Source of the DNA: Candidatus Uhrbacteria bacterium
Lineage (GTDB): Bacteria > Patescibacteriota > Patescibacteriia > 2-12-FULL-60-25
DNA: 64,000 bases
NCBI GenBank assembly: GCA_020850575.1
Contig: JADZEJ010000004.1
Span: 1 to 64,000, forward strand
Direction: 5' to 3'
Below the pieces are notes generated by a model that worked only from the letters and a program-made list of their open reading frames with translations, was not told the origin of the DNA and did no database searches. Positions 3,820 through 33,972 of this stretch are shown here, piece by piece (positions within the stretch are counted from its first letter, which is position 1; each line of letters begins with the position of its first letter). The translations under genes were made by a program, and so were the position numbers.

Positions 3820-3850
3820 TGTGGATAAAAATATAACTATCTGTGGATAA
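3820..3850. promoter_or_regulatory. Pair of perfect DnaA boxes upstream of the fibre gene
   Basis: TGTGGATAA occurs at 3820-3828 and again at 3842-3850, the complement of the consensus box TTATCCACA, 22 bp apart. A near-match TTATCAACA lies about 90 bp further on. They sit in the upstream region of the giant fibre gene, about 27 kb from dnaA. The role could be transcriptional control by DnaA or titration. The remaining bases of 3722-3967 show no gene. Confidence 0.6.
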
Positions 3851-4015: not shown

Positions 4016-7000
4016 TCAATCTGTTTCCAAATGAATATAGTGGTCAACAATGGCTGATTCTTTTTTGCGTAAGTCCAAGTCAGGACTCACATATCTTTTA
4101 TACCCAACTTTTTGTGCTGTAACATAATACACATTTCTACCGACAAAAAATCCATAAGATCCATTTCTATCCGTAATTTGTGTTTCAAGTAATTTATTAA
4201 ATTTTTTATCAAAGATGCGAACCACTGCATTATGAATTGGCTTCTTCGTTTTCGCATCAATCACTGATCCCCATTTATTGGAACGAACAGGTGTTGCAAT
4301 TCTACGGAATAATAAATACGCAGCAATTTGACCACACAATAATAAACCATGAATAAATGTCGGCTGGATAAGCACAATTACCATACCTGCTAAGACACCG
4401 GTAAATGCCAATCCGTATTTTAATTTTCTAAGCGCTTTTCTCCACAATATTTTCTGTGGTGTTTCCTCTCTGGCAATCGGATCAACCGGAATGTTTAAAG
4501 AAATAATAGCATTTTGATCTGCAATTTCAATTTTTGTTCCAAAGTATAAATCTACAAAATCCATGTCTTCTTTACTGTCTTTCAAAAAATCACTAGGAAA
4601 AACATACCCTGGTTTAACAACCTCAATCAAATAATTCCCTTTCTTTACATCAAATGAATATTGACCTTCTTTATTTGTGATTTTAGTTTGCACGACCAAT
4701 TTTGTTTCAAACTGCATTAATCGAACAATAGCTAAATCAACAGGTTTTTTTGTCAAAGAATGATAAACGATACCCCATTTCTTACGTCGTCCAGGAAACA
4801 ATAATAACAAAGGCTGAGTAAACAAATATTGCAGATATGCCAAAAAATTAAACAAAGATAAAGCAGATGCGGTATTTACCAGTGCTAATGCGGTAATAAT
4901 CGGAGCTGAAGTTTCAACGACCTCTTGCGTGACGGAATTTTGGGTAAACCTTTGAACAGCCGTGGAGGCGTTTTGCGTTACCACATTTCCTATTTCTACA
5001 ACTTGAGGAATAAGTGGCTTTTCAGTATCAATCTTTGGAATCTCCACGGTACGAAAAATCAATGACTGTGATTCATTAAATACATTGTATGAAATGTATA
5101 CTGGATTCGAAACACGTTTATCAAAACCTTGAGCTTCAACTTCTACATAATACCGACCATTTGGAACAACGAAAGCAAATTGACCGCTTCCGCCGGCTAT
5201 ACTTGTGTTATAGCGTACCCAAGTTCCACCTATTTCATGAAACAAAACAACCTCGGCTCCCGGAACAGGACGATCAGTTTCTCCAATAAGTGAAGATTCA
5301 ACCACTTGACCGGTTGGCTGTACGAACAACGTATGTGATATTTGTCGTTGACTTCCGTCTTGGAAGAGTGCCGTCACTCGGGATGGAACTTCGCCTGGAT
5401 TTGGAATAACAAAAGTTGCTGCAAACACTGATTCCGAAGGAATATAAGTCATTGCATACACATTCCCACCAATCACCGCCGTTACCGACGTTGGAATTGT
5501 TGACATTCCCATGACAGGTAAAACAACTCGCGTAGGTGAACCTGCTAACACACCAATTCGACCGGACATGTCAGGAGTCAACAAAAGTGATCCACCTGAT
5601 CCATAGTATTGAACAGTAATTCCGGCAGTACTTGGCAAAGGTGGTGATGGAAGAGTTGAAGTAGGACTTACCGGAATCGGATTTACCGGAGGTGTACTCG
5701 TACTCGTGGGAGGAATCGGTGGCGTCGATGTAGGCGGGATCGGAGGTGTACTCGTTGGAGGAACAACAATCAATCCAATCGGTGTTCCAACACCTAATGC
5801 ACCTGATGAAAAATTATTCGTCGTATCATAGGCATAGGCCGTGTAATAATACGTAGTGCCATTCGTCAATCCCGTATCAAGTACCGTGACCCCAGAACCA
5901 TCGTACACAGTTACTCCATCAAATGGATTTGTTGGATATCCACCTAATTTGCGCAAAATTTTCGTACCCGCAAAATCAGGATCTGGCGGCAAGGTCCAAT
6001 TCAAATTATTTACTGTGTCACCTGGTGTAACCGATAAATTAATAACATTCGCTGGAGGAGTGATATCAGATAATGTCGTAAAAGTTCCATCTGGGCTGGT
6101 CGCAGTTACATTTGAACCGTCAATCGAAACTACTTCAAAGTGATATAAGGTAGCCGGCGTTAAACCACTCAATGAAACAACATGTGATGTAACAAGACCA
6201 GCCGTAGAAGCACTCAAGCCATAGCTATTCGTCAATCCAAAATGCACTAAAGAAGAAGCTGGTTTGTTAGTATTCCACGAAACCAACGCCGTCGTATCAG
6301 TGATATTCAATACTTGAAGATTGGTAATAACCAAAGGAACATTTTCAGCCAAAGTGGTAAATGTAAAATCTCCTGATACGGCTTGTAATAAAGTCAGTCC
6401 ATTTAATGAAGAAACTTGAAAGTGATACAACTCATCCGGAATCAAACCGGTAATTTGAATAGCATGTGAATTAACCTGAGCGCCATTCATAATTGTCCCG
6501 CTGGAATAACTGATCGTTTGTCCGAAAAAAACTGTTGAATCAGTACTCTGATCAGTAGTCCATGTAATCAAAGCCGTACTCGTGGTAATCATCGTAGCTT
6601 GTACATTCGAAATAACCGGAGGGAATACCGATCCTCCTCCACCTCCCCCGCATCCCGTACAAGGCGGCGTCGATGTTGTCGTTGTTGCAGCAACGGTTGC
6701 AGAAACAGTCACCATGTCTGACGACACGATCGGAACGGCAATTGTATTAGAATCCCCAAAAGTGCCGCCAATCGCAATTAAAGCCAAACTTGGAGTTACC
6801 GGATTCGTTAATTGATGCGTACCTCCTGCATTCAAACCAATCTTAATGCCAATTTTTTGACCGCCTGCGATACCGGATGGTCCTGAAGCATCTGATGGTG
6901 CGGTTAATGTTAAAAACCCTCCACCAAAGGAAGCTCCCCAAATACCAACTCCGGGAACGGCGGCAACGGAAGTACTTTGTTCAAAACCGGTCGTAGCTCC

Positions 7001-7270
7001 CCAACCCAACAAAACATCACTCGCATCAACGGCACCAAAGGTAAATGCAGATAAATCAATCGTGATCGTATCAGTATTTGCATTGATGCCCGTAGGACTC
7101 AAGAAAACAATTTCATGATCAGCTGTAACTCCCACTTGTAAACGTGACAATGTATCTGTTGCCGGTGAAGCGATTGCTGCAACTGTAATTCCACTGTGAA
7201 AAACAAACAACGCCGCAATCAATAAACTGACTACGATCCGTTTTAAAAATACAATGAAATGAATCCCCAT
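4016..7270 (-). CDS. Secreted multidomain surface protein with FN3-like and carboxypeptidase-regulatory-like domains
   Basis: The protein has 1084 aa. It carries a signal peptide (residues about 8-32), then a beta-sandwich region (about 35-190) and a Gly-rich linker (CTGCGGGGGG). Two or three fibronectin-III-like domains follow (about 217-300, 310-400 and 405-490) with the pattern ISNVQATMITTSTALITWTT. A Pro/Thr/Ser linker with PPTSTP repeats (about 500-560) resembles a cell-wall spacer. The C-terminal half has three carboxypeptidase-regulatory-like folds (for example GSGQFAFVVPNGRYYVEVEAQGF) interrupted by hydrophobic helices near 805-825 and 960-1000. The protein is therefore probably anchored through its C-terminal half. 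It starts 8 bp after the upstream gene and is very likely co-transcribed with it. The function is structural or adhesive by inference; no catalytic motif is recognised. Confidence 0.85.
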   Translation of the reverse strand: MGIHFIVFLKRIVVSLLIAALFVFHSGITVAAIASPATDTLSRLQVGVTADHEIVFLSPTGINANTDTITIDLSAFTFGAVDASDVLLGWGATTGFEQSTSVAAVPGVGIWGASFGGGFLTLTAPSDASGPSGIAGGQKIGIKIGLNAGGTHQLTNPVTPSLALIAIGGTFGDSNTIAVPIVSSDMVTVSATVAATTTTSTPPCTGCGGGGGGSVFPPVISNVQATMITTSTALITWTTDQSTDSTVFFGQTISYSSGTIMNGAQVNSHAIQITGLIPDELYHFQVSSLNGLTLLQAVSGDFTFTTLAENVPLVITNLQVLNITDTTALVSWNTNKPASSLVHFGLTNSYGLSASTAGLVTSHVVSLSGLTPATLYHFEVVSIDGSNVTATSPDGTFTTLSDITPPANVINLSVTPGDTVNNLNWTLPPDPDFAGTKILRKLGGYPTNPFDGVTVYDGSGVTVLDTGLTNGTTYYYTAYAYDTTNNFSSGALGVGTPIGLIVVPPTSTPPIPPTSTPPIPPTSTSTPPVNPIPVSPTSTLPSPPLPSTAGITVQYYGSGGSLLLTPDMSGRIGVLAGSPTRVVLPVMGMSTIPTSVTAVIGGNVYAMTYIPSESVFAATFVIPNPGEVPSRVTALFQDGSQRQISHTLFVQPTGQVVESSLIGETDRPVPGAEVVLFHEIGGTWVRYNTSIAGGSGQFAFVVPNGRYYVEVEAQGFDKRVSNPVYISYNVFNESQSLIFRTVEIPKIDTEKPLIPQVVEIGNVVTQNASTAVQRFTQNSVTQEVVETSAPIITALALVNTASALSLFNFLAYLQYLFTQPLLLLFPGRRKKWGIVYHSLTKKPVDLAIVRLMQFETKLVVQTKITNKEGQYSFDVKKGNYLIEVVKPGYVFPSDFLKDSKEDMDFVDLYFGTKIEIADQNAIISLNIPVDPIAREETPQKILWRKALRKLKYGLAFTGVLAGMVIVLIQPTFIHGLLLCGQIAAYLLFRRIATPVRSNKWGSVIDAKTKKPIHNAVVRIFDKKFNKLLETQITDRNGSYGFFVGRNVYYVTAQKVGYKRYVSPDLDLRKKESAIVDHYIHLETD

Positions 7271-9599: not shown

Positions 9600-10520
9600 T
9601 TAGTAATTCGCCGTTACTTCATAGTATACCTCATGAGTATAGTTTCCCGCAGCTGTCGCGCTCGAAATTGCTGCCTTGTACACTAAAACAACACGATCTA
9701 AAAGTGTTTCCACTGTATTTTCTTGAATAACACGAGCTGTACTTGAACTAAAACCAAAATCCGAACCCGTACTCGAAGCGGTAATTCCAAACATCTGTGC
9801 TCCGTATTCCTCAGAGCCAATTGTCACCGTACCATCGGAAACATTGGCAATATACGCTAACGCTCCATAGCGCAGATTTCCATCATCATACACAGAAACA
9901 TGATACCCATTCTCCGCATTCGATGAAACTGATAATGCAGTAACGGAAGTTTTACCTAATGCAGGAGATAAAATACTAAGATTAGCAATACTTCCTTCTA
10001 ATCGATAAACGGAATCATCTCCACCTGCTGGGGTTGCGGTGACGCTTGAAGTAGCACCATCCCATTGATCCACGGTAATAGTTAAGCCATTAATGGCAAA
10101 AATCCGACCAACGACAACCTGTTGTGATAAACCCTCATTTTCCACAACCGCAATCAAATCACCTACTGCGAAAGAACCGATATTTGAAACCACCACACTT
10201 TTAGTACTTGAACTAAACGAACTATAAGAAACCTTCGTTGCATTTTCTTGAGTTCCTAAAGAAAATGTTAAAGAACTCAAATCCTGATCGCCAACACGAT
10301 ATCCTGCACTCATCGTGAAAACAGTAGAAGTCGAAAAACCAGTAGCTTGTTCACCAATTGTATCTCTCAAGCGATAGTTCGTTGATGAACTCACATCATC
10401 ACCACCGGAATTAACTGAATCCCAGTTAATTTGAAAATTACTGCTATCCATCGCAAAAACCGTTGGGCATAATAAAGCCAAACAACAAACAATGAAGCCT
10501 CTGATCAGACGTGTTAACAC
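9600..10520 (-). CDS. Secreted beta-rich protein, unknown function
   Basis: The protein has 306 aa from GTG at 10520. A short signal peptide (residues about 5-23, ending VFA) is followed by MDSSNFQINWDSVNSGG and a TNYRLRDTIGE motif often seen in uncharacterised patescibacterial secreted proteins. The mature protein is rich in Ser, Thr and Val, with no Cys in the visible mature part and no catalytic signature. The start is chosen because a TATACT -10 box ends exactly 7 nt before the GTG, which would give a leaderless message. The C-terminus resembles that of the downstream secreted protein. It is the first gene of the minus-strand surface cluster after the parS region. Confidence 0.7.
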   Translation of the reverse strand: MLTRLIRGFIVCCLALLCPTVFAMDSSNFQINWDSVNSGGDDVSSSTNYRLRDTIGEQATGFSTSTVFTMSAGYRVGDQDLSSLTFSLGTQENATKVSYSSFSSSTKSVVVSNIGSFAVGDLIAVVENEGLSQQVVVGRIFAINGLTITVDQWDGATSSVTATPAGGDDSVYRLEGSIANLSILSPALGKTSVTALSVSSNAENGYHVSVYDDGNLRYGALAYIANVSDGTVTIGSEEYGAQMFGITASSTGSDFGFSSSTARVIQENTVETLLDRVVLVYKAAISSATAAGNYTHEVYYEVTANY

Positions 10521-10527
10521 ATATACT

Positions 10528-10533
10528 AGTATA
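10528..10533 (-). promoter_or_regulatory. -10 box TATACT, putative leaderless start of the 306-aa secreted protein
   Basis: TATACT on the minus strand is followed by 7 nt and then GTG at 10520. No convincing -35 is seen. Confidence 0.4.
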
Positions 10534-12000
10534 CCATTTATTGTTAAAAACGATTTAAATGCTTAGTAAGCAAAAACTTAGCTAAACATAGCAAAAAAAT
10601 TATACAAAAATATGCGTCGTAAAATATTTATATTTAAATCGCTGTTATACACATTTTATACACATAATAATGTTACTCATTTTTATAACATCAAAGATTG
10701 AATAAATTTTGCTCTTTCTAAAAACTTTTTTTAAAAAAAAAATTAAATTATAGATATGATCCAAAATACAATAATCTTCGTAATCCATAATCAACATTCA
10801 TGTTTCACGTGAAACAATTTACAAGCCAAAACAAAATTATAAAATATAACTGTTGTTTATAAAAAATTACCAATTTTCAAATAAAAATTGAAAAATTTAT
10901 CAAAAGATTATTCTCCAGAAAAATTTACAAATTTCATAGCCAAAAAAAATCGCAATTGTTTCACGTGAAACATTATTAAAATAAACCATGATTTCAAATT
11001 AACTTAAGTTAGTACAAAAATTTAGAAAAAAACTAATAAATAAAAAAATACGATTTTCTTCTAAGTATTCGTTTAAAATTGAAACTAAAAATATTTAAAA
11101 AAATTTTTATAAACTTGTTTCACATGAAACAAGTTTGACGCTAGTATTTTTTTTAAGAAATTAATTGTGTATTTATATAAAAATCTATCATCATAGATCT
11201 ATAAAAGTTTATAAAATTCAAACTTTTAAACAAAAAATGTTAAAAATGTTTATAGCGAAAAGAAATGCATTGTTTCACATGAAACAATTTAAACCACTTA
11301 AATAAGGGTAAACTTTAACAGTATTGATTTTAAACGTATATATTTTTCAAAAAAATATAATACGTAATCATTTAAATAAATTCTTTTAAAGTTATTATTC
11401 AAATAAGATAATACATTGTTTCACGTGAAACAAAAAGCAACTTTTGTTACAAACAATACAATCAACCATAGTAACAAAAATAATATAGACAACCTAAAAA
11501 ACAATATCTTGAATTTACACTATTACAAAAACGAATAATTCCTAGTCAAATAATTATTTAAAATAAATAACTACATAGAATTTGTTTCACGTGAAACAAA
11601 AAAATGTTGATCTAATAAAAAATTGAACAATTGTATTGTTAAACACAACAAGTTATCGATATATGATACAAAATGATCTAAAAATAAAGTTTTATATAAA
11701 TTTTAAAAATTTAAGCTTTCTATAAGGAAAAAATACGTATGTATATAAAAATTTCCTTTTGTTTCACGTGAAACAATTGAAATGAGTTAAATACAATTTA
11801 CAAAAATTTATCTTCTACAAAATTATGTTAAACCATGTTTCACGTGAAACAAACTTGAATATATCCTTTATAAGGAAAATGATTTCAATTCTTGAATAGA
11901 AGAATTTTTAAAAATAATAAATATATTAAAAATATTTATAAAATTATACAAAGAAATATCATCTAAAAATGATTAAACATACCTGTTTCACGTGAAACAA

Positions 12001-22281: not shown

Positions 22282-23409
22282 GTGGAAAACGATATTCAAA
22301 ATGCTATTTCTAAAGCCAGTCCGATTTCGGCTTATGGAATAAATAAACTTCCTCAAGGTCCGCGTATCCTTCGAATGATCGGATATATTTTTCTGATCTT
22401 TTGTATTGTTGGAATACTATGTATTTTTTTGATTCAAATTCCCGTACCTGAAAAAACAATCGCACTTGGTTTCATTAAAAGTGGTACCAAATTATCTGAA
22501 AAACTTCCTCTTTCATGGCGCGAAAGCATCGAACCGTCATTTTTTCCAATTATTATTGGACTTTCATCAAAAGAAGAACAATACGAGCCTTTTGCAATCA
22601 TTCCTCGTATCCAACCAACATCTGGACTTCATCGTCAAAATTTCGGTTTTTTTTCTCTCATTAGCGCAAACCCGATATCGCAAACCACCAAAAAACTCTA
22701 CACCTTTTTACCATTACTATGGAATTTGCGTCATTCTCCATCCGCATTTTCACTTTCTTTACCTGTAGAAAAAGAACAGAATCTAACATTCGTTGTAACC
22801 GGACCATTTGAAGGACATGTTTGGAAAAGCACTATTCCTTTACCGATAACTGAACAAAATAAACTGCCGGAATACGCAAACGCTGTCAATCTAGCTGTTT
22901 TTCCGGAGGCTGATCAACTTATCCAAACAAAATTACAAAAATTATTTAACCTTCCACCAGAAAAAATAAAAATGATTGCCTGGGAAAGTCAAAATGATGC
23001 TCTAAAATCATTTGAACTGGAATTTAATAAAACAGACGTACCAACCACTTCCGCTATCGCTTTTCTCGGTGCCTTCGGTGTGCAAGATCAAGTAAAACTC
23101 AATTTAGCGGATGGAACAGTAATAGATGAATATCGTCTACCTACAAACATATTCACTTCCGCTTCAAGCACGACCAAATGGCAAACTGGTTCATCTACAA
23201 CAGTTAGTATTCACGGCGCCAGCATAACCTACACAACAAATGAAAAACTGCAGACATCAATCCCAACTTGTCCAGGAACTCCGGTTTTTCGTTTTAACCA
23301 ACAAAGCCTCGAACAAATTGCAAAAGAATTACAATTCTCAATATATCAATCTCCCACCTATCTAACTGGCTCAATAATGGATAATAAACTTATCCTCTGC
23401 GTGGATTAA
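22282..23409 (+). CDS. Single-pass membrane protein, unknown function
   Basis: The protein has 375 aa from GTG at 22282, with an SD-like AGGG 12 bp upstream. One transmembrane helix (residues about 30-53) is preceded by a short cytoplasmic N-terminus. The remaining 320 residues are predicted outside and beta-rich, with two cysteines near the C-terminus (PTCPGTP and LILCVD) that could form a disulfide. No domain is recognised. It follows the PBP gene after a terminator. The next downstream element is the large structured RNA. A role in the cell envelope is likely from topology only. Confidence 0.7.
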   Translation: MENDIQNAISKASPISAYGINKLPQGPRILRMIGYIFLIFCIVGILCIFLIQIPVPEKTIALGFIKSGTKLSEKLPLSWRESIEPSFFPIIIGLSSKEEQYEPFAIIPRIQPTSGLHRQNFGFFSLISANPISQTTKKLYTFLPLLWNLRHSPSAFSLSLPVEKEQNLTFVVTGPFEGHVWKSTIPLPITEQNKLPEYANAVNLAVFPEADQLIQTKLQKLFNLPPEKIKMIAWESQNDALKSFELEFNKTDVPTTSAIAFLGAFGVQDQVKLNLADGTVIDEYRLPTNIFTSASSTTKWQTGSSTTVSIHGASITYTTNEKLQTSIPTCPGTPVFRFNQQSLEQIAKELQFSIYQSPTYLTGSIMDNKLILCVD

Positions 23410-23410
23410 G

Positions 23411-23471
23411 TTATCCACAACATGTGGAAATCTGAAATATAGTACTCAATCTAGCAAAAATATTATCCACA
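23411..23471. promoter_or_regulatory. Two perfect DnaA boxes upstream of the structured RNA promoter
   Basis: TTATCCACA occurs at 23411-23419 and 23463-23471. The second box ends 13 bp before the -35 hexamer of the RNA promoter, a position suited to control by DnaA. Confidence 0.6.
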
Positions 23472-23483
23472 GGGGTCTGTTGA

Positions 23484-23512
23484 TTGATCGGTGACCCAAA
23501 ACGTGCTATTAT
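23484..23512 (+). promoter_or_regulatory. Sigma-70-type promoter of the structured RNA
   Basis: TTGATC, a 17-bp spacer, then TATTAT, with TGC directly before the -10. The expected transcription start is about 23519. Confidence 0.75.
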
Positions 23513-23518
23513 GATGAT

Positions 23519-24077
23519 GTTCGGTAAAGCCACCGAGCATGACCACAAAGGTCATTCGCACCTTCCATTTCTCTCTGCAGGTAGATAGCAAAAAGCTGTC
23601 ACCTAAGTATTTGGTTATGGCCAAGTGCCATTGTTCACCTCATCGTTTGTTCGTGTTAACAAGAGACGCCTAAATGTCTCATAACTACCTAACCATTGGT
23701 AGACACTCGCTCTTTACAACTGCAAGGGGTAGACCTCCATCTTCGATGGCGGTCAATTCCATGCCTTGACTCGACCCCCGTTTTGATTTCGATCAAAACA
23801 TCAGATAACAAAAAACAAAATCATTAAAAACCCACTGAGGCCACCTCAAAACCAAAGAATCTTCGGATTCTCCATGAGGTCACGCCAGGGTTGGGTCGAA
23901 GCAGCAGTCCCTTTCAGACCTAGACAACTCGTAGCGTAAGCTCCAAGTCAGCCAAGCTGATTTATCCGAACCTCGTGCTTCTAAAAGCACACTCGATGGA
24001 GCCCATGTTCAACAGTCCAGGTCTAAGACCGTGCGACCACTTTATTCTCATATATAAGGGTCCTCCACGGTCTTTTT
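23519..24077 (+). ncRNA. Large structured non-coding RNA (about 560 nt), family not recognised
   Basis: There is no credible coding frame, and the region is visibly less AT-rich than other spacers. It has a promoter at its 5' end and a terminator at its 3' end. Perfect hairpins recur: ATGACC-ACAAA-GGTCAT, GATAGC-AAAAA-GCTGTC, ATGGC-CAAGT-GCCAT, GAGAC-GCCTAAAT-GTCTC, CTACC-TAACCATT-GGTAG, CCATC-TTC-GATGG inside GACC/GGTC, GTTTTGAT-TTCG-ATCAAAAC, AGAATC-TTCG-GATTCT inside ACCTCA/TGAGGT, TCAGC-CAA-GCTGA and GTGCTT-CTAA-AAGCAC. A 3' domain is closed by AGACCT/AGGTCT with GCTCC/GGAGC inside. An unpaired A-rich linker (about 23798-23835) separates two halves. It lacks RNase P, tmRNA, SRP and 6S signatures. 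The next gene is dksA-like. Confidence 0.75.
24025..24077 (+). terminator. Terminator of the structured RNA
   Basis: AAGACCGTG (24025-24033) pairs with CACGGTCTT (24066-24074) and is followed by Ts. The long loop contains an inner ACC/GGGT pairing. Confidence 0.7.
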
Positions 24078-24136: not shown

Positions 24137-24562
24137 ATGGTTGACCAACTAGACCAGCAACGCTATCATCTCAAAAACTCAAATTCTATGATCCAAAAGA
24201 AGCTAGACCACTACCATGAACTTCTGATAAAAGAAAAAGATCGTCTACTCCAAGAGTTGAAAGACTTTGGAAATGAAGATCCAAATAATCCTGGTCATTT
24301 TGCGACAAAATACCCGGAGTCCGGTAGTAATTCCGAAGATGATAATGCTGTCGAAATCGCCGAATATGCTGACGATCTTTCTGTCGAAAGTCGCTTAGAA
24401 GAAGAACTTCGCGATGTTGAAGGCGCCCTAAAAGCAATCACCGCAGGAACGTATGGAACCTGTAGATACTGCAAAAAAGAAATTGATGAAAAACGTCTTG
24501 AAGCACGTCCGGCATCATCAAGCTGTATTTCTTGCAAAAAAATATTAACCCAAGAAATGTAA
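24137..24562 (+). CDS. DksA/TraR-family C4 zinc-finger protein
   Basis: The protein has 141 aa from ATG at 24137 (MVDQLDQQRYHL); alternatives are an upstream in-frame TTG at 24116 and an ATG at 24188. An N-terminal helical part (residues about 20-50) is followed by an acidic middle and the zinc finger CRYCKKEID-x12-SCISCKK (four Cys). In this family the protein enters the RNA polymerase secondary channel and adjusts promoter output, often with ppGpp. The TAA stop lies 2 bp before the lspA ATG, so the two genes are co-transcribed. Confidence 0.85.
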   Translation: MVDQLDQQRYHLKNSNSMIQKKLDHYHELLIKEKDRLLQELKDFGNEDPNNPGHFATKYPESGSNSEDDNAVEIAEYADDLSVESRLEEELRDVEGALKAITAGTYGTCRYCKKEIDEKRLEARPASSSCISCKKILTQEM

Positions 24563-31062: not shown

Positions 31063-31126
31063 AGTTTGACAGTACATTGCTAGCCTGTTGAAGTTAAACC
31101 CATCATTCACTTCTTTTCGACCCTTT

Positions 31127-32536
31127 ATGGATACTCAAGAGCTCTGGCGGGCGACACTCGGTGAACTCGAGTTAACCCTCTCAAAAGCCAATTTCACCAC
31201 ATGGTTTAAGAATACCTTTATTGCATCTTATGATAATGGTCGTGTTGTGATCGCTGTTCCAAATACCTTTACAAAGGCTTGGCTTGAAAAAAAGTATCAT
31301 GAATCAATCATTCGCGCGCTTCGAAACGTAACTTCAAATAACGTTCGTGAAATCTCATATCGAGTCGAAGTTCACAATACGACACCTGTTCCAAATTTAC
31401 TTGATCGCTTGGAAACTGTTAATCAAAATGAAGAATCTCCAAGTAATCCAAATTTTACAACAATTTCCCTCCAAAACGTTTCTACCGTCGAATCTACTCC
31501 TAATGATATCGGTCTAAACCCACGATATACATTCGACCATTTTGTCGTTGGTAAAGCAAATGAACTTGCGCATGCTGCATCAATAGCTGTCGCGGCTAAA
31601 CCGGGTGAAGCATATAATCCACTTTTTATTTATGGTGGTTCTGGGTTAGGAAAAACTCATTTACTCCAAGCAATCGGTCACCATGTTGCTAAATCAAATT
31701 CAAATGCGAAAGTCCTTTATGTAACCTGTGAACGCTTTACAAATGAATTTATTAGCGCTGTTCGTTCAGGACGTGGCATGGATTTCAAAAACACCTATCG
31801 AAGCGTCGATGTCCTCATGATTGATGATATTCAATTCATGACCGGTAAAGAAGGAACTCAAGAAGAATTTTTTAATACCTTTAACGAATTACATCAACGC
31901 AATAAACAAATTATCGTAACTGCCGATCGCATGCCTAAAGATATTCAGGGGCTTGAAACTCGTTTACTCACACGTTTCGACTGGGGTATGACGGTAGATG
32001 TTTCTAACCCTGATTTCGAAACTCGTGTTGCTATTCTCGAAGCTAAATCTCGTGAAAAATTTCCAAAACTGGATGCCGAAATTCTCCGTCTTATTGCCGG
32101 TGCTATTCAATCCAGCGTCCGCGAACTTGAAGGCGCTTTAAATAAAATTCTCGCCTATCATCAATTTAAAAACATCACTCCGAACCAAGATTCTGTTCAA
32201 ACCTTATTGCAAAGTTTTATTCCAAATACGCCAAAAAGAAATATCACTCCACGTAAACTGATTGAAATCGTCGTCAGCTATTTTGACGTAACACTGGATG
32301 AAATACTAGGTAAAAGCCGTGAACAACGTTTAGCTTTTCCTCGTCAAATAGCCATGTTTCTCCTTAGAGAAGAAGCAAAATGTTCATTCCCAACAATCGG
32401 TTCCCATTTAGGCGGGCGCGATCACACCACTGCGATGCACGCTTGTACGAAAATCACCGACCTACTAAAAGAAGATGAAAAACTTCGACACGATATTAAT
32501 CAACTGCGTGAAAAGCTGTATACCGCCTCAAATTAA
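31127..32536 (+). CDS. dnaA: Chromosomal replication initiator DnaA
   Basis: The protein has 469 aa from ATG at 31127 (MDTQELWRATLGELEL). An in-frame TTG at 31088 is rejected because homologues begin at the ELW-x-LGELE helix. Domain I covers 1-85 and a variable linker about 86-130. The AAA+ domain has Walker A GGSGLGKTH (about 170-178) and Walker B VLMIDDIQF. The C-terminal helix-turn-helix has the signature GGRDHTTAMHACTKI. It binds DnaA boxes and opens oriC. Its likely target is the box cluster directly downstream. Confidence 0.97.
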   Translation: MDTQELWRATLGELELTLSKANFTTWFKNTFIASYDNGRVVIAVPNTFTKAWLEKKYHESIIRALRNVTSNNVREISYRVEVHNTTPVPNLLDRLETVNQNEESPSNPNFTTISLQNVSTVESTPNDIGLNPRYTFDHFVVGKANELAHAASIAVAAKPGEAYNPLFIYGGSGLGKTHLLQAIGHHVAKSNSNAKVLYVTCERFTNEFISAVRSGRGMDFKNTYRSVDVLMIDDIQFMTGKEGTQEEFFNTFNELHQRNKQIIVTADRMPKDIQGLETRLLTRFDWGMTVDVSNPDFETRVAILEAKSREKFPKLDAEILRLIAGAIQSSVRELEGALNKILAYHQFKNITPNQDSVQTLLQSFIPNTPKRNITPRKLIEIVVSYFDVTLDEILGKSREQRLAFPRQIAMFLLREEAKCSFPTIGSHLGGRDHTTAMHACTKITDLLKEDEKLRHDINQLREKLYTASN

Positions 32537-32835
32537 AACAAACTCATCCACATCCACTGTGGATAATGAAACAAATAAAACGTGGATAATTCGTAACACA
32601 GTAATTTCGTCCACAGCTCTCTCCAAGTAACCCACCATCCATCCCACAACTATGTGGACGAATTTAATCAAAATATAACCTTAACAAAGACCTTTTCTAA
32701 AATTATTCACACTATCCACACCCCTTATGATTACTACTTATTCTCATATATATATCTTTAACCTAAAGAATGAACTCTAAAAGGGGGATAATAAACCAAA
32801 CAAGTAAAATTTGAGCATCTAACGTTTTCCATACT
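32537..32835. other. oriC: Putative oriC with DnaA-box cluster between dnaA and dnaN
   Basis: The 299-bp gap contains TCATCCACA (32544-32552), TGTGGATAA (32558-32566), CGTGGATAA (32581-32589), TTATTCACA (32703-32711) and, directly abutting it, CTATCCACA (32712-32720). GTCCACAG and TGTGGACG near-matches lie between. An AT-rich tract (about 32725-32765, with ATATATATAT) could be the unwinding element. The dnaA-dnaN position is the classic bacterial origin site. Confidence 0.75.
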
Positions 32836-33972
32836 ATGCATTTTGCGTGTACTCAAGAAAATCTTATTCAGGGATTAAACATGGTTTCCCATATTTCCGG
32901 AAAAAATATAAATCTACCCGTTTTGGGGAATGTGTTATTAAAAACGGAAGCTGGTTCTTTACGTATGTCCACGACGAATCTGGAAATAGCGGTTAATTGT
33001 CTGGTACGTGGTAAAGTTGAAGTTGAAGGCGAGTACAGTGTTCCAGCAAAGCTCTTCCTCGATTATGTCTCGCTTTTGCCCTCAGGTAAGGTTGAACTGA
33101 TTTTACAAGAAGATGGACTCGAAGTTCGTTCTGGCGAACAGGAGACCGTTTTAAAAGGAATGGTAGCCTCAGAATTCCCCCTTCTACCAAAACTAGCAAA
33201 GGAAAAAGGGTTTGAGCTTAAAGCGATAGATATGAAGCGTGCGATTAGTCAGGTTGCTTCTGCGGTTTCTACATCAGAATCTCGTCCGGAATTAATGGGT
33301 GTCGCTTGTTATTTTGGTGGTATTGCCGGTCAAGGAAAGGTTGCTTTTACAGCAACTGATTCGTATCGTCTTGCCGAACGAATCATGATATACAAGGGTT
33401 CAACCGAAGAAGGAAAATGGATTATACCGGTTAGGGCTCTCAATGAGTCTGCACGCATTATCGGTTCTTATAAAGATGAAATGAATATGCCGGAGAACAT
33501 TGATTTTTATTTTACTGAAAATCAACTTGTTATTACCTTTGGCAATGTTGAGTTAATCTCTCGCTTAATTGAAGGTTCTTTTCCTGATTATAAACCTCTT
33601 ATTCCAACCAATTTTAAAACCGAAGCCATCCTCTCTCGTTCAGAAGTTCAAAAAGCGGTTCGGGCTGCTAGTCTATTCGCTCGACAAGGAGTTTTTGATA
33701 TTCATTTTTCCTTTGATCCTGAAGCTGGAACTTGCACAGTCCAAAGTGCTGACCAAGGAACGGGTAAAACAAAAACCTCCATTAAAGGAAAGATTGTTGG
33801 TGAAACAAATCGTCTTACGCTAAATTTTCGGTATTTAAATGACGGTCTCTCAGCGATGGATAGTACTGAGATACGGTTTCGTCAAATTGATCATAATAGC
33901 CCGGCTCTTATAATCCCCGAAGGTTCAAAAGAGGAGTATCAATACTTAGTGATGCCAATCCGTAGTAATTAA
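32836..33972 (+). CDS. dnaN: DNA polymerase III subunit beta (sliding clamp)
   Basis: The protein has 378 aa in three clamp domains. Recognisable strands include LPVLGNVLLKT, SMSTTNLEIAVN-like RMSTTNLEIAV, VASEFPLLP, ATDSYRLAER and LISRLIEGSFPDYKPLIP, with the C-terminal LVMPIRSN. It forms the ring that tethers polymerase to DNA, loaded by the clamp loader including HolA (12.8 kb). The length is normal. It follows oriC and ends at a bidirectional terminator shared with pnp. Confidence 0.96.
   Translation: MHFACTQENLIQGLNMVSHISGKNINLPVLGNVLLKTEAGSLRMSTTNLEIAVNCLVRGKVEVEGEYSVPAKLFLDYVSLLPSGKVELILQEDGLEVRSGEQETVLKGMVASEFPLLPKLAKEKGFELKAIDMKRAISQVASAVSTSESRPELMGVACYFGGIAGQGKVAFTATDSYRLAERIMIYKGSTEEGKWIIPVRALNESARIIGSYKDEMNMPENIDFYFTENQLVITFGNVELISRLIEGSFPDYKPLIPTNFKTEAILSRSEVQKAVRAASLFARQGVFDIHFSFDPEAGTCTVQSADQGTGKTKTSIKGKIVGETNRLTLNFRYLNDGLSAMDSTEIRFRQIDHNSPALIIPEGSKEEYQYLVMPIRSN

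Follow-up and report, generated by a model that had tools for sequence, protein, structure and literature searches.

Large bacterial RNAs that have persisted deeply, such as RNase P RNA, tmRNA, SRP RNA and 6S RNA, have usually proved to do something basic. Others, such as OLE, ROOL and GOLLD, are large and intricate RNAs that emerged from comparative genomics and whose function is unclear, and all three assemble into RNA-only homo-oligomers (PMC12286853). A non-coding RNA can also be tied to the cell cycle through its location and its promoter: CcnA of Caulobacter crescentus is an origin-encoded cell-cycle RNA, presumably activated by CtrA and proposed to act on the ctrA and gcrA mRNAs (PMC8959179). 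As for DnaA, most of its targets in E. coli require boxes in pairs, with a gap of only 2-3 bp (PMC11317965), while datA, DARS and the origin-proximal clusters carry DnaA boxes near but outside the origin, and a dense origin-proximal box region supports titration (PMC12371093).

The locus described here lies in a 64,000-nt stretch of DNA (the window) from a genome of Candidatus Uhrbacteria. The evidence supports the view that positions 23519-24077 form a discrete, large structured RNA outside any known class. Its features are given below, where 'own family' refers to Candidatus Uhrbacteria and relatives, and 'both-side changes' to base pairs in which both partners change among relatives.

22282 to 23409: conserved upstream gene whose protein has an N-terminal membrane segment, adjoining the RNA in many loci
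23411 to 23419, plus strand: exact DnaA box TTATCCACA
23463 to 23471, plus strand: exact DnaA box TTATCCACA, beginning 21 bp ahead of the start of the -35 hexamer
23484 to 23512, plus strand: predicted sigma-70-like promoter, TTGATC-N17-TATTAT, with TG ahead of the -10
23519 to 24077, plus strand: RNA gene of about 559 nt, running from its inferred start through the U run
23519 to 23725, plus strand: lineage-specific 5′ domain of several hairpins, variable in length in relatives and mostly missing outside the own family
23732 to 23754, plus strand: helix P-a (23732-23740 with 23746-23754), with a UUCG-type loop; both-side changes in 7 of 9 pairs
23762 to 23777, plus strand: 5′ strand of P-core, UGCCUUGACUCGACCC, a 16-bp long-range helix; both-side changes in 13 of 16 pairs
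23780 to 23799, plus strand: hairpin 1 (GUUUUGAU-UUCG-AUCAAAAC), of the own family, its shape differing between relatives
23804 to 23832, plus strand: conserved A-rich linker (CAAAAAACAAAA), unpaired according to the comparison of relatives
23839 to 23886, plus strand: helix P-c (GGC 23839-23841 with GCC 23884-23886; CCTC 23844-23847 with GAGG 23876-23879), with a UUCG hairpin as its cap
23888 to 23903, plus strand: 3′ strand of P-core, GGGUUGGGUCGAAGCA, partner of 23762-23777
23916 to 24024, plus strand: 3′ domain; its closing helix in the own family is P-e (AGACCUAGAC 23916-23925 with GUCCAGGUCU 24015-24024), with both-side changes in 7 of 10 pairs
24027 to 24077, plus strand: terminal hairpin and intrinsic terminator (a stem with an internal loop, an inner ACC/GGU stem, then the U run)
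24188 to 24562, plus strand: gene of a DksA/TraR-type zinc-finger protein (PF01258), the usual but not universal neighbour

We infer that the RNA is transcribed from the sigma-70-type promoter to its own terminator. Promoter-like sites are unremarkable in this genome alone, with 4 found in the region and 2.1 expected in shuffles; most of the 74 homologous loci have a promoter at the equivalent place, again with a 17-bp spacer and often nearer to the consensus than the one seen here. At the other end, the arms GACCGTG (24027-24033) and CACGGTC (24066-24072) are followed by TTTTT at 24073-24077. An automatic scan did not call this terminator, owing to the length of the hairpin and its internal loop. 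An earlier note, made by a model from the letters of this DNA, had described a consensus-like promoter with a 17-bp spacer, hairpins of which three have UUCG-type loops, an A-rich linker (present at about 23804-23832) and an intrinsic terminator, and all of these are borne out. No open reading frame of more than 60 aa in the ORF list of the window fits 23519-24077. The 559-nt segment folds at -185 kcal/mol, as against -127.8 ± 7.0 in shuffles (z = -8.2), and its reverse strand yields z = -3.6. The same note's large structured RNA of about 560 nt agrees with this fold energy and with the covariation described below; as a unit of that length it holds for this locus, but about 200 nt at the 5′ end and portions of the 3′ half are confined to particular lineages, and outside the own family homologs often measure just 330-430 nt. 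The source genome (1.04 Mb, 7 contigs) contains a single copy.

Covariation among relatives, which had been proposed as a check, is very strong, and it was controlled by shuffles and by register slides. Specifically, alignment A4, made up of 26 own-family sequences, has both-side changes with pairing retained in 24 of 32 pairs of the core, a count that is not tree-corrected and is matched in 0 of 500 shuffles; 90 percent of cells are paired, as against 77 percent in the shuffles, and shifting the partner by one column lowers this to 41-52 percent. A second alignment in which other families predominate (A8, 33 rows, 9 of which had served in model building) has both-side changes in 24 of 28 pairs, with 86.5 percent paired, also not tree-corrected. 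Both A4 and A8 were fitted to a covariance model, which favours the structure; the alignment of the 3′ part (A9, 18 sequences) was made with MAFFT alone and not so fitted, and there 14 of 20 pairs have both-side changes and 87 percent are paired, again not tree-corrected. At the level of sequence comparison, the covariation goes beyond the controls, as expected of a structured non-coding RNA. A further MAFFT alignment mixing cores of the own and other families (A6) misplaced the 5′ strand and was excluded.

The core helix (23762-23777 with 23888-23903) is an addition to the earlier note. P-core closes over hairpin 1 (in the own family), the A-rich linker and P-c with its inner hairpin, and P-c lies almost directly upon it in this architecture. 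One step of P-core, A-U, C-G, U-G (ACU/GGU), which includes a U-G wobble, is near-invariant across families (32 of 33 rows for each pair in A8). An initial register for this helix, UCGACCC:GGGUCGA plus UGC:GCA, was dropped for the continuous 16-bp helix, which fits more sequences. The terminal hairpin, which doubles as the terminator, has a conserved internal loop; in A9 its outer stem has both-side changes in 6 of 7 pairs and is 99 percent paired, and its inner ACC/GGU stem is 94 percent paired.

Judging by model matches, the RNA has been kept in many families within a single class of Patescibacteria; it is known from about twenty of them, once per genome. At the DNA level, 8 of 57 genomes searched gave matches, the source genome among them. 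Of the 41 own-family genomes, a covariance model from 6 sequences (R1) found the RNA in at least 31. A model from 26 sequences (R2) adds one genome to these (G002) and reaches other families of the class. With a model built solely from the other families of the class (R3) and strict filters, 66 of 381 class genomes were matched, at least one of them falsely (L134); in a 380-genome sample of the phylum, the same model and filters gave matches confined to members of the same class. An exact scan of genome contigs for the core pattern gave 8 matches, 4 of them in family members. Weak matches were checked through the gene order of 20 further loci: in 16, dksA, lspA or comM adjoins the RNA, L138 is supported by its sequence alone, and the other three are false. 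Of these three, L134 reads as a coding sequence for ribosomal protein S10, and L124 and L125, which would have been extra copies in G243, are inverted repeats of the GTCATTCCGG type in a genome with a good copy elsewhere. Another candidate, L062, was judged doubtful. Separately, L072 has a second, weak model match right behind the main one (1646-1719), perhaps by chance or through partial duplication.

The second addition to the earlier note consists of the exact DnaA boxes that start at 23411 and 23463, two where 0.7 would be expected by chance in the entire window. Across the 74 homologous loci there are 106 exact TTATCCACA boxes, all within 400 nt 5′ of the RNA core. Counted in 100-nt bins starting at -400, -300, -200 and -100, they number 12, 75, 18 and 1, and the remaining bins of the flanks (up to about 2 kb in the 74 loci) hold 0. 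At least one exact box is found in 65 of the 74 loci and at least two in 34, and in many loci of the family f46 the boxes stand at -122 and -91 relative to the predicted -35. The boxes thus occupy a conserved place near the promoter, as they would in a putatively DnaA-controlled gene; the offset of about 31 bp that is common here differs from the 2-3 bp within the box pairs of E. coli targets. Elsewhere in the window, two exact DnaA boxes 22 bp apart (3820-3850) adjoin a very large gene for a surface-type protein (4016-7270, minus strand), at its 3′ end.

The locus is also close to dnaA, which lies on the same contig roughly 8-23 kb away in 8 of 10 genomes tested, about 41 kb away in G002 and on a separate contig in G230. 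In the source genome, dnaA occupies 31088-32536 and dnaN 32836-33972, and the stretch between them (32544-32720) has 5 DnaA boxes, 1 exact and 4 with one mismatch, and is the likely replication origin. Since this cluster sits between dnaA and dnaN, the boxes of the RNA form a separate site, and the idea that the RNA locus itself is the origin was dropped. GC skew in a one-contig relative, sampled at 20 stretches, is too weak to be informative.

The reading towards which we lean, if by a narrow measure, is that of an independently transcribed, multi-domain non-coding RNA, its synthesis linked to DnaA, working in trans as a scaffold or regulator. Conserved DnaA boxes just 5′ of the promoter suggest DnaA control of RNA synthesis: DnaA would bind the boxes and modulate the promoter, the RNA level would follow the replication state, and nearness to dnaA and the origin would give the gene a high dosage. 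Once made, the RNA would most likely serve as a trans-acting folded scaffold or regulator. The junction core (P-core, the hairpin of the own family and P-c) would display the conserved unpaired A-rich strand, and the terminal hairpin with its conserved internal loop resembles a binding platform, so that this strand and this hairpin are the likely contact surfaces. Because parts of the 5′ and 3′ domains are not conserved, function may be confined to the core. The nearest functional parallel is CcnA, which is likewise a non-coding RNA at or near the origin with a promoter tied to a cell-cycle DNA-binding regulator; it differs in lying at the origin itself, whereas the RNA described here has DnaA boxes, an unrelated host group and a deep covarying structure.

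The main rival holds that the boxes, close to the origin, serve to titrate or recharge DnaA in the manner of datA, DARS or the origin-proximal box cluster of E. coli, and that the RNA is a conserved neighbour without DnaA regulation. In most genomes tested the boxes lie 8-23 kb away from dnaA, which would suit such a site, as would their presence even where the genes 3′ of the RNA differ. However, the position of the boxes is tight relative to the RNA promoter across many families (-122 and -91 in many loci), beyond what titration needs, and 1-3 exact boxes are few for that purpose. In contrast to datA, DARS and the E. coli clusters, the boxes here are linked to a promoter, that of a conserved RNA gene, and we regard this alternative as unlikely, if worth serious attention.

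Rfam 15 (4227 families, with the curated gathering score as the lowest covariance-model score accepted) is presumed to include 6S, OLE, ROOL and GOLLD. The window gave five tRNAs only and nothing at 23519-24077; a search of the RNA itself with lax filters returned chance matches only, and neither 12 homologous loci nor two single homologs matched any family. The RNA is thus absent from Rfam 15 and previously uncatalogued, and no earlier description was found in the open-access literature searched. The earlier note had excluded RNase P RNA, tmRNA and SRP RNA, and rightly so by these searches: RNase P RNA (RF00010) is at G000:C1:106410-106829 and tmRNA (RF00023) at G000:C2:68614-69006, both of them large housekeeping RNAs present once per genome but at other positions, and no Rfam SRP model matches at the RNA. 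The note's likeness to OLE and ROOL, on the other hand, survives as a matter of size and unclear function and not as homology at the level of Rfam. Compared with OLE, ROOL and GOLLD, the hosts are different, and the RNA described here is encoded at a single-copy chromosomal locus with a fixed neighbourhood and DnaA boxes. That it is mainly architectural, forming RNA-only homo-oligomers as these three do, is suggested by analogy through its large size, its long helices and its A-rich strands suited to A-minor contacts, but the lack of a match to the three families and the length of the homologs, often below 400 nt, make this improbable.

A broader proposal, put forward tentatively and held to be somewhat doubtful, is that this is the founding member of a class-wide Patescibacteria RNA family, DnaA-controlled, through which ultra-small bacteria would couple another cell process to their replication state and which would be of a replication-linked kind not known elsewhere. 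The link to DnaA boxes makes two ideas testable, (i) DnaA control of a non-coding RNA and (ii) an RNA by which bacteria with tiny genomes tie replication to growth, and the alignments and the position rule ease annotation and lookup in existing metatranscriptomes.

The neighbourhood bears on a further alternative. In the relatives' loci inspected, the RNA is preceded by the gene of an uncharacterised membrane protein and followed by those of a DksA/TraR zinc-finger protein and LspA; the protein of 22282-23409 has no Pfam match. The RNA is usually upstream of dksA-lspA-comM, but not always: dksA and lspA are convergent with it in L088, an rsmE-like gene stands between it and dksA in L037, other genes are 3′ of it in L033 and L041, and in L098 lspA and comM are present but nothing matches dksA. 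The earlier placement of the RNA directly upstream of a DksA-like regulator therefore stands for this locus but not as a constant position. Since the RNA is found without adjacent dksA in some loci, it appears to be an independent gene and not a dksA leader. A cis-acting leader (riboswitch or attenuator) of a dksA-lspA operon would fit the loci, the majority, in which dksA is on the same strand and 3′ of the RNA, and an RNA that finishes in a terminator, but we consider it very improbable: such a leader should always be upstream of and co-directional with dksA, which the five loci above contradict, dksA has a second promoter-like site ahead of it (24141), 99 percent of cells in the outer stem of the terminal hairpin are paired, and no alternative pairing turned up that is conserved.

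Least probable of all, if by a small margin, is that the RNA replaces a missing housekeeping RNA such as SRP RNA: RF00169 had no match in 25 class genomes (the source genome and 24 others) as against matches in 11 of 14 controls, RF01854 had none in the source genome, and the core holds GAAGCAGCAG, which we take to be reminiscent of SRP domain IV, but neither SRP search matched the Bacillus subtilis control, so that their sensitivity is incomplete, lax cmscan on three homologs gave no SRP similarity, and the AGCAGC string shared with the small SRP RNA varies in homologs, being part of P-core and changing along with its partner. No useful literature on SRP RNA in Patescibacteria was found, and from these searches the small SRP RNA of the class would be either very divergent or missing.

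Elsewhere in the window, positions 10001-12000 have 25 percent G+C, about 15 points under the surroundings, and few open frames.
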